DNA of 40,857 bases from Bacteroidota bacterium (GTDB taxonomy: Bacteria > Bacteroidota > Ignavibacteria > Ignavibacteriales > Ignavibacteriaceae): NCBI GenBank assembly GCA_022562275.1, contig JADFPP010000026.1:1-40857 (forward strand). The letters are read 5' to 3'. This document shows, piece by piece, positions 1 through 29,500 of this stretch. The notes under the pieces were generated by a model, which saw nothing but the letters and a program-made list of their open reading frames with translations, was not told the origin of the DNA and did not search any database. Numbering within the stretch: position 1 is the first letter of the stretch; each line of letters starts with the position of its first letter. The position numbers and the translations under genes are program-made.

Positions 1-635
1 TGCTTTTGGTTTTAGTACCGTTTAATAATCTTTTTTCTCAAATATTTGTTGAACAGGATAAGATTGATGAACTCAAGAATTCTAATGCTAATTCTTATTA
101 TTTACCTTCTGAGGAAACTGGAGATAAACTCCTTTACCTTAAAAAGATAACGTCTTATAAAGGTTATTATTCCGATATAAAAGTTGGCTTTGACAAAGAA
201 GAATATAAAAGTGGTGATATGATAATAGTGACTTTAAAAAGAGGGTATGAAAATGAAATTGAAAGTGAAGAAGTTTGGTTATCAAGTGCTTGTGATCGAA
301 TATTTTCTGACCAGGTAGAAATCCAAAAAAATGAGAATGGTCCTTATCAATTTTATCTTAAAAAAGGACAAGAAGTAAAGATAAATTTAAGTTGTTTAGG
401 CAGAAAGGGTGTTAGATTAAGGTTCCATTTTGGCCCCCCGATTATTGGCATGGGTTTTCAAATGGAGAATAGAGAATATATTATTCGTTTTTCAGACGGT
501 TTAGAGGAAGAAGTACAAAGAGATTCAGGTTCAAATAATAAACTTCAAATCAATTTTATGATTGGTCCTTCCGAAAGTAAAACTGTGCCCCCTGATACGG
601 AAGTGAAAGTCCAATCACCTTCAATTAACTATTGA
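1..635 (+). CDS. Secreted protein of unknown function, paralogue 1 (5' end outside window)
   Basis: I do not recognise a named family. The reading frame is open to the first base and in phase with a hydrophobic stretch (L-V-L-V-P-F), so the true start and most of the signal peptide lie upstream. The TTG at 6 is only an in-frame codon. The mature part (about 195 residues) is nearly the same as the gene at 685 and clearly related to the first 200 residues of the gene at 1391. Shared blocks are GFDKEEY, VTLKRGYENE, YLKKGQEVKI and a C-terminal PPDT...SPSINY tail. It has Cys pairs but no catalytic motif and no type IX sorting domain. The mixed hydrophobic/polar periodicity suggests a beta-rich exported domain (inference). 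It belongs to a tandem array with near-identical intergenic DNA, so it arose by recent duplication. Confidence 0.75.
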   Translation, partial: LLVLVPFNNLFSQIFVEQDKIDELKNSNANSYYLPSEETGDKLLYLKKITSYKGYYSDIKVGFDKEEYKSGDMIIVTLKRGYENEIESEEVWLSSACDRIFSDQVEIQKNENGPYQFYLKKGQEVKINLSCLGRKGVRLRFHFGPPIIGMGFQMENREYIIRFSDGLEEEVQRDSGSNNKLQINFMIGPSESKTVPPDTEVKVQSPSINY

Positions 636-672
636 AACTTAGCAATAAATATTTTTTTATTAACATTAATTT

Positions 673-677
673 AGGAG
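673..677 (+). promoter_or_regulatory. Ribosome binding site AGGAG
   Basis: AGGAG lies 7 bases before the ATG at 685 and fixes that start. The 45 bases from the stop of the preceding gene through this site recur exactly ahead of the gene at 1391 (AGGAG at 1379-1383). Confidence 0.7.
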
Positions 678-684
678 CCCTAAA

Positions 685-1341
685 ATGAAAACCTTAAAAA
701 TCCTTTTACTGCTTTTAGCCCTAATTCCGTTCAGCAATATTTATTCTCAATATTTTGTTGACCAGGATAAGATTGATGAACTCAAGAATTCTAATGCTAA
801 TTCTTATTATTTACCTTCTGAGGAAACAGGAGAGAAACTTCTTTACCTTGCAAATATAACGTCTTTTAAAGGTTATTATTCCGATGTAAAATTGGGTTTT
901 GACAAAGAGGAATATAATAGTAATGATATGATAATAGTGACTTTAAAAAGAGGATACGAAAATGAAACTGATAGTGAAAATGTAATCATTTATGGCTGTG
1001 TAGAAGTGTTTTCTGACCAAATAGAAATCAATAAAATTGAGAATGGTCCTTATCAATTATATCTTAAAAAAGGACAGGAAGTAAAGATAAAATTAAGCTG
1101 TAGACGCGGAAAGAGTGTTAGATTAAATTTTAATTTCGGCCCGATTATTAGTTATGGTTGGCCAGGAGAGAGTAGAGAGTATATTATTCGTTTTTCAGAC
1201 GGTTTAGAGGAAGAAGTACAAAGAGATTCAGTTTCAAATAATAAACTTATAATCAATAATTTTATGATTGGTCCTACAGAAAGTAAAACAGTACCCCCTG
1301 ATACAGGAGAAAAAGTCCATTCACCTTCAATTAACTATTGA
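685..1341 (+). CDS. Secreted protein of unknown function, paralogue 2
   Basis: A 218-residue protein with a clear Sec signal peptide (MKTLK, then a Leu-rich core, then SNIYSQ), so cleavage is probably after residue 21. The mature domain repeats the blocks seen in the gene before it and in the N-terminal 200 residues of the metallopeptidase-like gene after it: KLGFDKEEY, VTLKRGYENE, LYLKKGQEVKI, EYIIRFSDGLEEE. There is no sorting domain, lipobox or enzyme motif, so it should end in the periplasm or be released by another route. Because it is a free-standing copy of the N-terminal domain of its protease-like neighbour, an inhibitor, chaperone or propeptide role is possible. That is inference only. 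Confidence 0.85.
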   Translation: MKTLKILLLLLALIPFSNIYSQYFVDQDKIDELKNSNANSYYLPSEETGEKLLYLANITSFKGYYSDVKLGFDKEEYNSNDMIIVTLKRGYENETDSENVIIYGCVEVFSDQIEINKIENGPYQLYLKKGQEVKIKLSCRRGKSVRLNFNFGPIISYGWPGESREYIIRFSDGLEEEVQRDSVSNNKLIINNFMIGPTESKTVPPDTGEKVHSPSINY

Positions 1342-1390
1342 AACTTAGCAATAAATATTTTTTTATTAACATTAATTTAGGAGACATAAA

Positions 1391-4333
1391 ATGAAAACCT
1401 TAAAAATTCTTTTACTGCTTTTAGTTCTATTTCCCTTCAGCAATATTTTTTCTCAATATTTTATTGATCATGACACCGTTGAGCGGGTATGGCGGCAAAA
1501 TAATCTTGAACGCTATTGGGCAAAACCTGAAGAAATAAAAGACAGGACTGTCTATCTTAAGTACATACGTAAAGGCTGGACTAACTCAGATGTAAAAATC
1601 GGATTTGACAAACTTGATTATAAGAGCGGCGACATAATAAAAGTAACGCTAATAAGGGGATACGCGAATGAAGCCGATAGTGTAATGGTAATACCACCTG
1701 GTTATGTAGACGCGCTTGATAACCAGGTAGAAGTAAAACAATCTGAGCTGGATCAATATTATTTGTATCTCAAAAAAGGAGAAGAAGTAGAAATAAATTT
1801 GAGCCTTAATGATGGAAAGGGTCAAAGTTTGACTTTTTCTTTCGGAGGAGTTCATTTTGAAGCGAGGAGTTATGTTATTCTCTATTCAGATAAACTACAA
1901 GAGGGAGAATTTGGGGATTCAGTTAAACCAACTGGAAATACGCTGATTATCCAGGGAGTACAGGAATTTAGGCAAATTGCAATACCTGATACTTCCGGAC
2001 TTGCAAGATCACCTGGAATGATAGACTCAAAACAATCATTTTCATATTTGGAAGGGAACGCAACAGAAATAGCTGAGATCAATGCTGCAAGCAGCCATCA
2101 AATTTCGCTCATCAGCCCAAATGATTTTAGTCCTGTACAGAATGTTACAATTCATGGTACAATGGATTACGACAGCCCTATATTTCCAAATAATAATTAT
2201 CCGGTAAATTACTGGGTGCTAAGATTATATGAATCAGACAATTCATCTGATTTAGATGTTATTGATGAATTTGATCCGTACACGGAGCACTCAGTATCAA
2301 GCGGCCCTGGTGATGGAACATATAGTGTTGACATTAACATTACAAAAGGCTATTTCCGATTGGGGCTTATTCTGACTAGAAAGTCAGGAGCTCACAACGT
2401 GTACGAGTTAGGAAGATGGGAGCTTAGGCAAGGGGTACCTACCCTTGTCGGATATCAGCTACTGGCCCAGACTCTTCCTAATGTATATACACAAGTGAAT
2501 TTTGATTATACATATGCAGGCTCTCCAACAAATGGTGTAATTGAAACATTGAGACGATGCGCTCATATTGGAAATAGAATAGATTATTCAATTTTAACAA
2601 ATGTGGGCGGTGATGATTTGGCAGCTATTCAAAGTATTTTAATTGCCACAAGAGATAATGACGCTGTAATGCCTGCTGGATCAGGTTCACTTATTATAGA
2701 CGAAGTAAATAAAATAACTGCTATTCTAATAGCACCAGACGAGGATATTGATTATTATGATGCAGTTATAATTCATGAACACGGTCACACACTTATGTTT
2801 ACGTTAACAAATTATGAATGGAGAGAAGCCGGTAACCATTATCTGGATCAAAAAAACAGACCGGGTATGGCATTTTCTGAGGGCTGGGCTTCTTACTGGG
2901 CGTGTACTGTAGCTAACAACAGCACCTTATATTCCCAAACCCCTTACGCATTTTATCAATTGGATGTTAACACAGTTACAAGAAATTATATTTATTCAAG
3001 AACTGCACTACATGCCATTATATACCTGCCGGATGGAATAACAATATACGATGGAGTTGAATGCGAAGCCACCGTAGCCGGAGCATTATGGAAATTAACA
3101 TCTTCAAATAGCTTATCTTCAGTGTGGAATGGATTGAAATCACAAATATCAGATGGGACACAAAATAGAGCAGTAAAAAATATGATGGGATATTTTGCAG
3201 CCAATACTTCCTTAAAAAATTCTTTTTACAGCAACCCCTCAGGAGCTGAAGACATGGGATTTGGGAGAAATTTATCTTTCCTTACCAACACAACAAACTT
3301 ACAAATTACAATTCCGGGTCTGTCAGATAAAACTTTAATTTACCTGCAGGGTGGTACCTATATTGTTAATCCCCAAATTCAGGTGGATGCAAAATCTTTT
3401 GGAATATTTGGAATGAGTCCGAAAAATACAATTCTTATTGGACAAGCAAATCAAAATACAATAAATGTGATTAATGCAAATCCTTCGGACAATTGGTTTA
3501 AAATTTCCGACATTCAATTTCAGAATGGTGGTTTTGCTGTTGACGCCGGGGCAACAGGGACTGATCAACCAAAATTATATATGTCCCGTTGTATTTCAAT
3601 CTCGAATCTGAGGGGCGTTTGTTTTGCCGGGGATGCGATAATTGTAAACAATTTTATTATAGATAATCAAGACTTTGGCATATTTCTAATTTCAGCAGGT
3701 GCACCAAGAACATTATACATTTATAATAATATTATTCGTAATAGCGGAACCGGCTTAAGGTTTTATAATCAAGTTACTGTTTCCGGTTATGTTGTGAATA
3801 ATATGTTTGTTGACAATGATAATGGCATTGCAACCGTACATCCGAATGCGTTGCCAAATTCCCGCTCGGGAATATATTTTCAATATAACGGTCAACATCC
3901 TGATGCAATAACAACTGAGGCAGGATTAACAGTTTCAAATAATTATACTGAGATACCAGCATTTCTTGTAGATAATTATCAGTGTACAGTTAATTATTGG
4001 GATTCAGGAATTCTTGTTGGAACTTTGAATGATTTTGATCCGATATTCTATGATATAACTACCGAAGGGTTTTACGGTACCGAAAGAAATTGGATTGGTG
4101 CTTATGGAGGAAGGCAAGCACATTTTCTTAGGAGTCCTTTATTGCCTACAAGTTCTACATTAATAACGAACCCGCCAGCCTCGATTTCGGGTCAAAATGT
4201 TTGGGCAGGGCAGGTTAATATTACTTCCACTACTACTATTTTGCAAGGCGCATCAGTTACAATAATCCCCGGGACAAATATTACTTTTGCAAATAATTCT
4301 TCTCTTATTGTAAACGGAACCCTCAATGCCTAA
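1391..4333 (+). CDS. Secreted zinc-metallopeptidase-like protein with beta-helix region, N-terminal part (interrupted gene)
   Basis: 980 residues up to a TAA at 4331. Order: signal peptide (1-21, nearly identical to the gene at 685); a domain to about residue 200 shared with the two upstream paralogues; a region to about 400 with an extended, Ig-like feel (NYPVNYWVLRLYE and following); a peptidase-like segment; then right-handed beta-helix repeats from about 650. The zinc-peptidase signature HEHGH is at 462-466 with a downstream FSEGWASYW, where Glu497 would be the third ligand as in gluzincins. The reading frame stays open and protein-like straight after the TAA into the sequence ending at 5866, so this is the front of one ~1491-codon gene. 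The local context (NGTLNA-stop-GSPTNKITF) suggests a former Gln codon, CAA to TAA. On its own this product lacks the secretion-sorting domain. Confidence 0.85.
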   Translation: MKTLKILLLLLVLFPFSNIFSQYFIDHDTVERVWRQNNLERYWAKPEEIKDRTVYLKYIRKGWTNSDVKIGFDKLDYKSGDIIKVTLIRGYANEADSVMVIPPGYVDALDNQVEVKQSELDQYYLYLKKGEEVEINLSLNDGKGQSLTFSFGGVHFEARSYVILYSDKLQEGEFGDSVKPTGNTLIIQGVQEFRQIAIPDTSGLARSPGMIDSKQSFSYLEGNATEIAEINAASSHQISLISPNDFSPVQNVTIHGTMDYDSPIFPNNNYPVNYWVLRLYESDNSSDLDVIDEFDPYTEHSVSSGPGDGTYSVDINITKGYFRLGLILTRKSGAHNVYELGRWELRQGVPTLVGYQLLAQTLPNVYTQVNFDYTYAGSPTNGVIETLRRCAHIGNRIDYSILTNVGGDDLAAIQSILIATRDNDAVMPAGSGSLIIDEVNKITAILIAPDEDIDYYDAVIIHEHGHTLMFTLTNYEWREAGNHYLDQKNRPGMAFSEGWASYWACTVANNSTLYSQTPYAFYQLDVNTVTRNYIYSRTALHAIIYLPDGITIYDGVECEATVAGALWKLTSSNSLSSVWNGLKSQISDGTQNRAVKNMMGYFAANTSLKNSFYSNPSGAEDMGFGRNLSFLTNTTNLQITIPGLSDKTLIYLQGGTYIVNPQIQVDAKSFGIFGMSPKNTILIGQANQNTINVINANPSDNWFKISDIQFQNGGFAVDAGATGTDQPKLYMSRCISISNLRGVCFAGDAIIVNNFIIDNQDFGIFLISAGAPRTLYIYNNIIRNSGTGLRFYNQVTVSGYVVNNMFVDNDNGIATVHPNALPNSRSGIYFQYNGQHPDAITTEAGLTVSNNYTEIPAFLVDNYQCTVNYWDSGILVGTLNDFDPIFYDITTEGFYGTERNWIGAYGGRQAHFLRSPLLPTSSTLITNPPASISGQNVWAGQVNITSTTTILQGASVTIIPGTNITFANNSSLIVNGTLNA
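4331..4333 (+). other. In-frame TAA interrupting a ~1491-codon gene
   Basis: Codons before and after this TAA are in the same frame. The 67 codons between it and the next ATG at 4535 read as typical beta-helix sequence (ITFTRSGTSGTWGGIRF, then repeated S-P-x-I-x-x-N motifs). One C-to-T change from CAA (Gln) explains it. It could be a real nonsense mutation, strain polymorphism, or sequence error; the sequence alone cannot tell. Confidence 0.85.
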
Positions 4334-5999: not shown

Positions 6000-6614
6000 A
6001 TGGATATTAACCGCGAAGCGGGATCCCGAAACGGGAAAAATCTTAACGCTCTTTCGGATGAAGAACTAATTGCCGATCTTCAGCAAACCAATAATGAAAG
6101 AGCATTTGAAATTTTAGTGCAGCGTTATAAAAATCCGTTAACCAATTATGTGTTCCGTTTCCTCGGTGATTTTGATGCTTGTACGGATGTTGTGCAGGAA
6201 ACAATGATCAAGTTTTACAGGTATAAAAATAATTACAGCAATGTCGCAAAGTTTTCCACCTGGATTTACACAATTGCCGGCAACTTAGCTCGTACGGAAT
6301 ACAGAAGACGGAAACGCAGAAGTTTTATATCAATAAACGATTACGGAGAAGATCACAAAGTATTCGATATTCCAGATGAAAGCTACCGCCCCGATGTGAT
6401 GACCGACAGCGGAATTAAGGATGAAATAATTCAAAAGGCATTGTTAAAAGTGAAAGAAGTTTTTAGAGAGGTTGTTATTTTAAGAGATATACAGGGAATG
6501 AGTTATGAGGAAATTGCAAAAATAACCGGTTTGAATGAAGGCACCGTAAAATCGAGAATAAATCGCGGAAGAGCTAAATTACAGGAATTATTAAAAGATA
6601 TTTACAACGAATAG
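6000..6614 (+). CDS. RNA polymerase sigma factor, ECF (sigma-70 family)
   Basis: 204 residues, the usual ECF size. Region 2 (about 33-100) shows AFEILVQRY, DVVQETMIKFY and FSTWIYTIAGNLAR, typical of core binding and -10 recognition. A basic linker (RRRKRR) follows, and region 4 (about 140-198) has VFREVVILRDIQGMSYEEIA and GLNEGTVKSRINRGRAKL, the -35-binding helix-turn-helix. It should direct RNA polymerase to a stress or envelope regulon. The ATG at 6000 has no obvious ribosome binding site. The next gene follows 8 bases after the stop and encodes a probable membrane anti-sigma factor, a common ECF pairing. Confidence 0.93.
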   Translation: MDINREAGSRNGKNLNALSDEELIADLQQTNNERAFEILVQRYKNPLTNYVFRFLGDFDACTDVVQETMIKFYRYKNNYSNVAKFSTWIYTIAGNLARTEYRRRKRRSFISINDYGEDHKVFDIPDESYRPDVMTDSGIKDEIIQKALLKVKEVFREVVILRDIQGMSYEEIAKITGLNEGTVKSRINRGRAKLQELLKDIYNE

Positions 6615-6622
6615 TTATAAAA

Positions 6623-7279
6623 ATGATTGACGATGAAAAAAAATATAATGAAGTGATCAAAACACTCAAAGGTCTTCAGCAGTTAAAAGCATCCCCAAAT
6701 TTTGAAGCCGACCTAAAAAGAAGACTGAATGCGGAGAAGTACGTGAAGGAAGAAAAAAGAAAAATCAAAAGATTTTTTACCCCATCACGGTTAGTTCCTT
6801 CTTTTGGATTAGCTGCCGCAGCAATTGTTATACTCTTAATGGTCAATACTAATTCAGAAGAAGCAGATAACCCGTTTTTAATGGAACCGAAAATACGTGA
6901 GGATATAATGTTGGTCTCTGATAAGAATGAAGCAGTGATTCCAGAGGATAATTTAAATGAAAAAAGTGATGTGGCAGAAAAAGATGTTTTTACCGATAAA
7001 ATAAATAGTGGGGTAAGAAGTGAAAAATTATTAAAGGAAAGATCTTCTGATAATGACTTATTTGCCGGAAGAGAATTTTCCCCGTCGGAATCAACATTAA
7101 CAGCAGAAACAGAAATTACAATCACCGATGAAGTTTCGGCACCATTAGCCACCGGTATTGCTATCAGGAAATCCGGGCTGAATTTCAGGCAGGTATATCC
7201 TACTAAAGAAGAGAAGAAAGAGATTTTAGAACTTAAGAAAAAAATTCGATTTCCAAAGAAAATTGAAAAGTTGGAGTGA
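6623..7279 (+). CDS. Probable membrane anti-sigma factor
   Basis: 218 residues with one membrane helix (about 57-75). Residues 1-56 form a charged helical cytoplasmic segment (YNEVIKTLKGLQQLKASPNFEADLKRRL), and residues 76-218 an Asp/Glu/Lys-rich extracytoplasmic part. The topology and position directly after an ECF sigma gene fit an anti-sigma factor that holds the sigma at the membrane. I see no zinc-binding HxxxCxxC motif, so it would be a divergent type; the assignment rests on context and topology. A short hairpin AGAAAA/TTTTCT followed by T-rich DNA lies near 7288-7315. Confidence 0.6.
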   Translation: MIDDEKKYNEVIKTLKGLQQLKASPNFEADLKRRLNAEKYVKEEKRKIKRFFTPSRLVPSFGLAAAAIVILLMVNTNSEEADNPFLMEPKIREDIMLVSDKNEAVIPEDNLNEKSDVAEKDVFTDKINSGVRSEKLLKERSSDNDLFAGREFSPSESTLTAETEITITDEVSAPLATGIAIRKSGLNFRQVYPTKEEKKEILELKKKIRFPKKIEKLE

Positions 7280-7990: not shown

Positions 7991-9244
7991 ATGCAAATCT
8001 GCATTTTTGAAGACGAAAAATATTCAAACTTTTATCCGCTTACCTATTCAAGACCGGTTTACGAGCTTGTGTGCGGGATCAATACATTAAGGGAAAAAAT
8101 CGTAAGAGAATTTCCCGGATATCGATTCTCTCTCCACTGCAGGAAATATCTGGAAGAGACATTGAAAATTCGATATCCTGATTTAGATGTGAACAAAATT
8201 AACGATGATTCCTGTTTATTTATAAACGGCAGAATAATTTCACCCGGAAAACTTCTCGAAATGTTTTCTGCAGAGGAGTCCGAAGATTGTATTTATAAAT
8301 GCGGTGATGAAATCATTGCATTAAAATTATCTAAAGGTAATCTTATTGAGTTTAAAAAAGAATTTACTGATGTTATTAATCTTAATTCTTTTTTTGAATT
8401 AACTACTAAAAATATTGATGTAAAAGTTTACAATTATTTGTGGGAAATGATTACAGACAACGGTGCGGAAATACTGCGCGATGTTAAGGTTTTAACAAAA
8501 GCAAATTCTGATTTTACAGACCCGGGAAAATTTGAGAATGTAAATTTCATTAACTTAAAAAATATATTCATTAAAAATAATGTAACTATTAAACCGGGTG
8601 TTGTTATTGATGCATCCAATGGTCCGGTTTATATTGATGAGAGCGTTTTTATTTATCCCAATGCTGTTATTGAAGGTCCGGTTTATATCGGAAATAATTC
8701 AAAAATAAAAAGCGGGGCAGCCATTTATGAGAATGTAAGTATTGGCAGCGTTTGCAAGATTGGTGGTGAAGTTGAAGATTCAATCATCATGCCTTATTCC
8801 AACAAACAACATTCGGGTTTTATAGGGCACTCCTATTTGGGAAGTTGGGTAAACCTTGGTGCCGATACTAATTGCAGTGATCTAAAAAATAATTACAGCA
8901 CGATAAAAGTAAACTTAAACGGAAAAACTATAGATACTGGCTCCCGGTTTTTAGGTGTACTAATTGGAGATCATGCTAAAACTGCGATTGGTACAATGTT
9001 TAACACAGGAACTATAGTTGGCTTTTCATCAAATATTTTTGGTTCCGGATTTCCTCCAAAATATATTCCTTCTTTCTCCTGGGGAGGATCTGAGAATATA
9101 TCCACTTATAAGATTAATAAAAGTATTGAAACAGCCAAAGTTGTGATGGAACGAAGGAGTCTGGATCTACTTACGGAGGATGAGAAACTTTTTGAAGAGA
9201 TTTACAATTTTACTTCTGTAGAAAGAAAGGAAAAAAGTGATTAA
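7991..9244 (+). CDS. GlmU-like protein (putative sugar nucleotidyltransferase with left-handed beta-helix acetyltransferase domain)
   Basis: 417 residues resembling the alternative bacterial GlmU family found in Bacteroidota and relatives. The N-terminus has FEDEKYSNFYPLTYSRPVYEL and GINTLREKI, the family's own signature, instead of the classical LAAGxGTRM loop. From about residue 200 a hexapeptide-repeat left-handed beta-helix follows (IKPGVVIDASNGPVYI; VFIYPNAVIEGPVYIGNNSKI; GHSYLGSWVNLGADTNCSD; IGDHAKTAIGTMFNTGTIVG). The expected role is UDP-GlcNAc synthesis for peptidoglycan and lipopolysaccharide; the acetyltransferase half is the more secure part. A second, canonical uridylyltransferase is encoded at 28346. 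It leads an operon and overlaps the next gene by 8 bases. Confidence 0.8.
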   Translation: MQICIFEDEKYSNFYPLTYSRPVYELVCGINTLREKIVREFPGYRFSLHCRKYLEETLKIRYPDLDVNKINDDSCLFINGRIISPGKLLEMFSAEESEDCIYKCGDEIIALKLSKGNLIEFKKEFTDVINLNSFFELTTKNIDVKVYNYLWEMITDNGAEILRDVKVLTKANSDFTDPGKFENVNFINLKNIFIKNNVTIKPGVVIDASNGPVYIDESVFIYPNAVIEGPVYIGNNSKIKSGAAIYENVSIGSVCKIGGEVEDSIIMPYSNKQHSGFIGHSYLGSWVNLGADTNCSDLKNNYSTIKVNLNGKTIDTGSRFLGVLIGDHAKTAIGTMFNTGTIVGFSSNIFGSGFPPKYIPSFSWGGSENISTYKINKSIETAKVVMERRSLDLLTEDEKLFEEIYNFTSVERKEKSD

Positions 9245-28345: not shown

Positions 28346-29242
28346 ATGAACAATACTGATCAAATAATAAAAATGGTGGATGAACTATCATCCGAGCTGG
28401 ATAAAAACATAAAAGAGTATGCAATTATTTTAGCTGCAGGACATGGTAAAAGATTAAATTCGGAAAAATCTAAAATGCTTCATACAATTTTGGGAGTTCC
28501 CACAGTGGAAAGAGTTTACAATGCTTGCAAAAAAGGTGTGGAAGAAATTAACTCGGTAATTGTTGTTGGAATAAAAGCTGATGATGTGATGAAATATCTC
28601 GGCAAAAGAGAAAGAACAACTTACGCATACCAAGAAGTACGGAACGGAACAGGACATGCCGTGCAGGTTGCTTTACAGGATATGAAAAACGCTCCCGACG
28701 ATGCGATTGTTTACATTCTTCCCGGCGATATGGGATTGATCGATGGGGAAACTATTAAGCAATTCCGCACAGAGTTTATAAATTCCAAAACTGATATGAT
28801 TGTGCTTACAGGTTTGTACGAAGGAAAGCCTGAAAATAATCACTACGGAAGAATAATTAGAGTAAAGGATAACGGCGACAACGTAATACAGATAATGGAA
28901 CACAAAGATATTCTTGCTCTGCCCGATGATAAACCATACACCGTTACCTATAAAGGAAAAGAATACTTTTACACAAAGGAAGAGCTTATAAACAACAACG
29001 AGTACAACTCCGGTGTGTTTGCATTTAAGTACGGCAAGCTCGTAGAAATGATTGACAAACTGAAAAGCAATAATGTGCAAAGTGAAATTTACCTGACAGA
29101 CCTAATTGCACTGTATAATGAAAAGGGTTACACAGTTGCCGCATCAAGCCCTGAAAAGAATTATGTTGTAATGGGCTTTAACACACAGGAAGTACTGAAA
29201 GAGATGAATGAAATTGCACTGAAAATTTATGAAAAAAACTAA
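28346..29242 (+). CDS. GlmU-type UDP-N-acetylglucosamine pyrophosphorylase (uridylyltransferase domain only)
   Basis: 298 residues from the ATG at 28346; the longer frame from 28283 adds unlikely sequence. It is a canonical nucleotidyltransferase: signature IILAAGHGKRLNSEKSKML, QEVRNGTGHAVQVAL, PGDMGLIDGE, HYGRIIRV, NSGVFAF and EIYLTDLI. This is the half of GlmU that makes UDP-GlcNAc from GlcNAc-1-phosphate and UTP; the acetyltransferase beta-helix is missing. The gene ends A AAA AAC TAA, a textbook -1 slippery site touching the stop, and a protein-like -1 frame continues to 29397 (see that entry). It complements the divergent GlmU-like protein at 7991. Confidence 0.88.
   Translation: MNNTDQIIKMVDELSSELDKNIKEYAIILAAGHGKRLNSEKSKMLHTILGVPTVERVYNACKKGVEEINSVIVVGIKADDVMKYLGKRERTTYAYQEVRNGTGHAVQVALQDMKNAPDDAIVYILPGDMGLIDGETIKQFRTEFINSKTDMIVLTGLYEGKPENNHYGRIIRVKDNGDNVIQIMEHKDILALPDDKPYTVTYKGKEYFYTKEELINNNEYNSGVFAFKYGKLVEMIDKLKSNNVQSEIYLTDLIALYNEKGYTVAASSPEKNYVVMGFNTQEVLKEMNEIALKIYEKN
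29233..29239 (+). promoter_or_regulatory. Candidate -1 ribosomal frameshift site A AAA AAC
   Basis: In the reading phase of the gene at 28346 these seven bases are exactly X XXY YYZ (last base of GAA, then AAA, AAC) and the stop TAA follows at once. Slipping back one base opens a frame to 29397. A deletion of one A from an original run of eight is the simpler rival explanation. Confidence 0.45.
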
Positions 29243-29397
29243 AAAATTTATTATCTAAAAATCCAGATGATTTCTTTATCTACGAAGATGTTCTTGATGG
29301 TGTAATTACATTGGGTGAAGAAAAACACTCACTTAATATCACTATTGGCAAAGGTAATTATTTTGGTAAAGAATTTAAACTAAACAGAAAAGAATAA
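29239..29397 (+). other. -1 frame extension of the uridylyltransferase gene (about 52 codons, no own start)
   Basis: In the -1 frame the sequence reads L-K-N-L-L-S-K-N-P-D-D-F-F-I-Y-E-D-V and on through LNITIGKGNYFGKEFKLNR to TAA at 29395. It has no ATG, GTG or TTG in a usable place. The codon pattern is protein-like, and ITIGKGNYFG recalls one rung of a hexapeptide-repeat beta-helix, as would follow the uridylyltransferase domain in GlmU. Either the frame is reached by frameshifting or the gene has lost a base here. Confidence 0.55.
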
Positions 29398-29469
29398 ACA
29401 AAGGAAAATACAGCCGGTGTGGTGTTTTGTACCAGCTACCGTTGAGTGAGGTTCTGCAACGAAGCTTTA

Positions 29470-29500
29470 AAACAAAAAAGCTCTTCATTAAGAAGAGCTT
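29470..29500 (-). terminator. Rho-independent terminator of rpsT
   Basis: Read on the minus strand: a 9-bp stem AAGCTCTTC/GAAGAGCTT with a 5-base loop, then TTTTTTGTTTT. It lies 27 bases past the rpsT stop codon. Confidence 0.9.

Follow-up and report, generated by a model that had tools for sequence, protein, structure and literature searches.

The gene for a GlmU-like sugar nucleotidyltransferase domain at positions 28346–29242 (forward strand, 298 codons plus TAA) ends in an arrangement that looks like a recoding site, and this raises the question of whether the open frame behind it belongs to a longer protein. We analysed it within the whole 40,857-nucleotide stretch of DNA to which it belongs (the window). 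Seven A residues at 29232–29238 are followed by a C at 29239 and then directly by the TAA stop codon at 29240–29242, and this A7C run (forward strand, 29232–29239) contains the heptamer A AAA AAC in exact X XXY YYZ phase, just as a previous sequence-only reading had described it. On the same strand the -1 frame can be read without a stop from CTA (29239) as far as TAA (29395–29397), a tail of 52 codons (LKNLLSKNPDDFFIYEDVLDGVITLGEEKHSLNITIGKGNYFGKEFKLNRKE), and the preceding stop in that frame lies at 29230. The sequence-only reading also held that the tail has no start codon of its own; this needs a small correction in that there is an in-frame TTG at 29311, although nothing marks it as a start codon in use. 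The open frame is not a chance occurrence, since at the base composition of the tail itself an open run of this length would arise with a probability of only about 0.006, and the tail has matches to homologues with E values of about 1e-7 (see below). The heptamer itself is unremarkable. This AT-rich genome has many heptamers of its type, to judge by the genes of the window, whose 12,089 codons include four in-phase occurrences of A AAA AAC and 37 of A AAA AAN.

Homologues of the gene were found in 135 of the 146 related genomes searched. Most of them are open frames of 490–540 amino acids in which the match passes query residues 299–347 without a stop, and nearly all of the complete ones (contig-edge fragments and the truncated clade discussed below are set aside in this count) have the ~52 residues fused in frame, in proteins of about 505 amino acids. 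In these proteins the corresponding region makes up the linker together with the first coil of the left-handed β-helix at the C-terminal end. The 52 residues searched alone match the full-length protein of the relative G005 (E 1.1e-7), and the C-terminal domain of the protein from another full-length relative, G051, matches window positions 29224–29391 (E 6.3e-7). In an alignment of the tail with 25 homologues, [D/N]PDDFF and LDIxIGKG..IG are conserved; NPDDFF of the tail falls on the linker motif [D/N]P[D/E]DF[F/Y], and NITIGKGNYFGKEFKLN falls on DITIGKGVYIGxGVKLN of the first coil. Homology stops after the first coil, and the remaining β-helix is missing here. A search of the genome with the C-terminal domain gave only ordinary hexapeptide proteins and no orthologue of the lost β-helix, and we reject its relocation elsewhere in the genome on these grounds. 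The idea that a mobile or repeated element follows the remnant was likewise rejected, as 29385–29476 is unique in the genome.

An out-of-frame stretch homologous to a domain that is fused in relatives is what a domain remnant should look like, and we regard it as very probable that the tail (29239–29397, forward strand, -1 frame) is the frameshifted, truncated and decaying remnant of a lost domain, the product of ordinary gene erosion and not of a programmed frameshift. The ancestor would have been a two-domain protein of about 505 amino acids, a GlmU-like nucleotidyltransferase followed by a left-handed β-helix. Probably the frame was shifted by a small indel among the A-rich codons where the two domains join; compared with the full-length homologues, the net frame change falls on the A7C run there. 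Translation would then stop at once on TAA, which is the homologues' conserved Leu-Lys codon pair (nTRA) read out of frame. Most of the β-helix is gone as well, leaving a 52-codon piece of linker and first coil that is decaying and presumably untranslated, while the nucleotidyltransferase domain remains under selection as a shorter protein. In its frame change at an A run, its out-of-frame remnant behind a stop codon and the lost constraint on that remnant, the locus resembles domain loss and gene erosion by homopolymer indel; nothing notable sets it apart, the upstream domain here being still selected.

The enzyme that is left matches the Pfam families PF12804 (2e-14) and PF00483 (3e-10), and it shares an N-terminal nucleotidyltransferase domain with LAAGxGxR and NGTGHA motifs both with GlmU (TIGR01173) and with GlmU-like proteins that carry a β-helix. 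It differs from the former in scoring far below the curated family cut-off (148.7 bits against 366.85), and from the latter in having no β-helix, whereas its full-length relatives match nucleotidyltransferase and hexapeptide models. Where GlmU has its C-terminal acetyltransferase β-helix, the window gene has the first coil only, out of frame. The lost β-helix was probably not the standard GlmU acetyltransferase, because the TIGR01173 match in the full-length G051 protein ends near model position 310 of 452. A classical GlmU above the cut-off was not found elsewhere in the genome. The window also contains an alternative bacterial GlmU (alt_bact_glmU, TIGR03991) at 7991–9244, some 19 kb upstream of the truncated gene; it scores 444 bits, the cut-off being 225, and its presence may explain why loss of the domain was tolerated. 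The truncation suggests that one clade can do without the β-helix of this GlmU-like family.

Selection on the two parts of the ancestral gene was compared with a codon model fitted to the N-domain of 12 genomes, whose branch lengths served as the clock. The dN/dS ratio of the N-domain is 0.13 (in the truncated clade and also in the 12-genome fit) and 0.155 on the window's own branch. The corresponding value for the tail is 0.12 in full-length relatives and 0.83–0.85 (range about 0.45–1.4) on the window's own branch, where it is not distinguishable from 1 and where the background value of 0.12 is rejected by 11–15 log units. The tail is thus decaying and the enzyme is still constrained; relaxed selection on the remnant with continued constraint on the domain upstream is, again, the pattern expected of a domain remnant. 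Of the two causes that the sequence-only reading put forward, namely a programmed frameshift or an altered A run (by mutation or by sequencing error), mutation of the run is the one that this near-neutral tail and the in-frame fusion in relatives support.

Programmed -1 frameshifting at A AAA AAC, which would give a second, longer form of the enzyme, is by comparison extremely improbable. E. coli heptamers include C_CCA_AAG, G_GGA_AAG and A_AAA_AAG (PMC4066793). Frameshifting has been proven for one cluster of insertion sequences that has A_AAA_AAC (PMC4066793), so the motif alone does not exclude it here. The in-phase X XXY YYZ heptamer adjoining the stop and the open, homologous -1 frame behind it are features that the locus has in common with programmed frameshifting of the dnaX and IS3-family type, and dN/dS of the tail averaged since the ancestor of the truncated clade is about 0.55, which is under 1. 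However, those systems are unlike the window's site, for which we found no stimulator, no conservation of the site and no constraint on the extension on its own branch. The heptamer and open tail are absent at the end point in all four sister genomes (G001–G004), and G005 and the other full-length relatives examined have a plain in-frame fusion. A conserved downstream stem-loop had been suggested as something to look for, but the 80 nucleotides after the stop codon have no notable structure in pseudoknot-free folding (z-score -1.0; 29 of 200 shuffled sequences fold as well). An extended product would in addition carry only about one β-helix coil; peptides from such a hypothetical protein would span NPDDFFIYEDVLDGVITLGEEK. 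We reject programmed frameshifting on these grounds of conservation, constraint and structure.

The four sister genomes belong to the same GTDB genus, and in each of them the gene stops no more than about one codon away from where it does in the window. Together with the window they form a truncated clade that is split from the full-length relatives with 100% support, the branching order within it being weakly supported; G005 is assigned to that genus too and has the full-length form. None of the four sisters keeps an intact tail; G003 retains a collinear 52-nucleotide remnant, shorter than that of the window and broken by a stop codon in the corresponding -1 frame. In free local alignment this remnant has only a modest score, reached by 24 of 500 shuffles, so it is its collinear position that carries the argument. 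A mistaken A-run length in the assembly, behind which a fused protein of 350 amino acids would be hidden, has in its favour that the frame change sits in a homopolymer. It is nonetheless most improbable, because these separately assembled genomes are truncated at the same point and because A runs of seven to nine residues in the window's open reading frames (20 of seven, eight of eight and three of nine residues, 31 in all) break no frames elsewhere. Moreover, near-neutral evolution of the tail shows that no single recent artefact accounts for the loss, and most of the β-helix is missing in any case.

The common end point is less telling than it might seem. In 23 of the 25 full-length homologues, a net shift of the -1 type runs into nTRA at the conserved Leu-Lys codons, the stop met exactly there being nTGA or nTAA, while a shift in the other phase reads several codons further in most of them; because any shift of this phase is expected to stop there, the shared end is by itself no proof of a single event. 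Immediately before the Leu-Lys pair come A-rich Glu-Lys codons, so a heptamer touching the stop is an unsurprising result. In this sense the locus illustrates cleanly how ordinary domain loss can produce what looks like a slippery heptamer beside a stop codon, and it implies no new mechanism; such a case can be told from recoding by asking whether relatives have the region fused in frame, whether the tail is constrained and whether the position of the stop is trivial.

Within the domain-loss explanation, the window lineage may have lost its domain independently of its sisters, by a frameshift of its own at the shared hot spot, and to this we give slightly less than an even chance. A truncation common to a well-supported clade is more simply a single loss, and the G003 remnant has the same stop position and frame relation. 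On the other hand, when the tail is modelled as passing at some point from constraint to neutral evolution, that point falls 0.27 neutral substitutions per site before the present (about 0.12–0.45), which fits the window's own branch (0.356 on the same scale) better than the ancestor of the truncated clade (0.594), where the fit is 5 log units worse; this test uses 51 codons, simple codon models and the weakly supported branching order within the clade. The tail contains no stop codons and no out-of-frame indels over its 52 codons. It has decayed less than a loss in the clade ancestor predicts, which points either to a separate loss in the window lineage or to some function of the tail that was kept for a while after truncation. 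In the latter case, an old clade-wide truncation would have been followed by low-level slippage on the A run that went on yielding some extended protein, with the tail partly selected for a time or even now; we think this unlikely indeed, though if true it would be a translational rescue of an indel.

Some minor features of these genomes were also seen. In G004 (L036) the spacer that separates the truncated gene from queE holds, at ~6343–6876, an unrelated open reading frame of ~178 amino acids, which to the eye looks PIN-domain-like. The neighbourhood in G001 (L038) is rearranged, as the 12 kb examined there contained neither queE nor queD, which are neighbours of this gene in the other genomes. 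Finally, positions 6–4333 of the window contain three successive genes, apparently tandem paralogues, with closely similar N-terminal regions that comprise a signal-peptide-like start followed by the motif SDxKxGFDKxxYxSxDxIxVTLxRGY.
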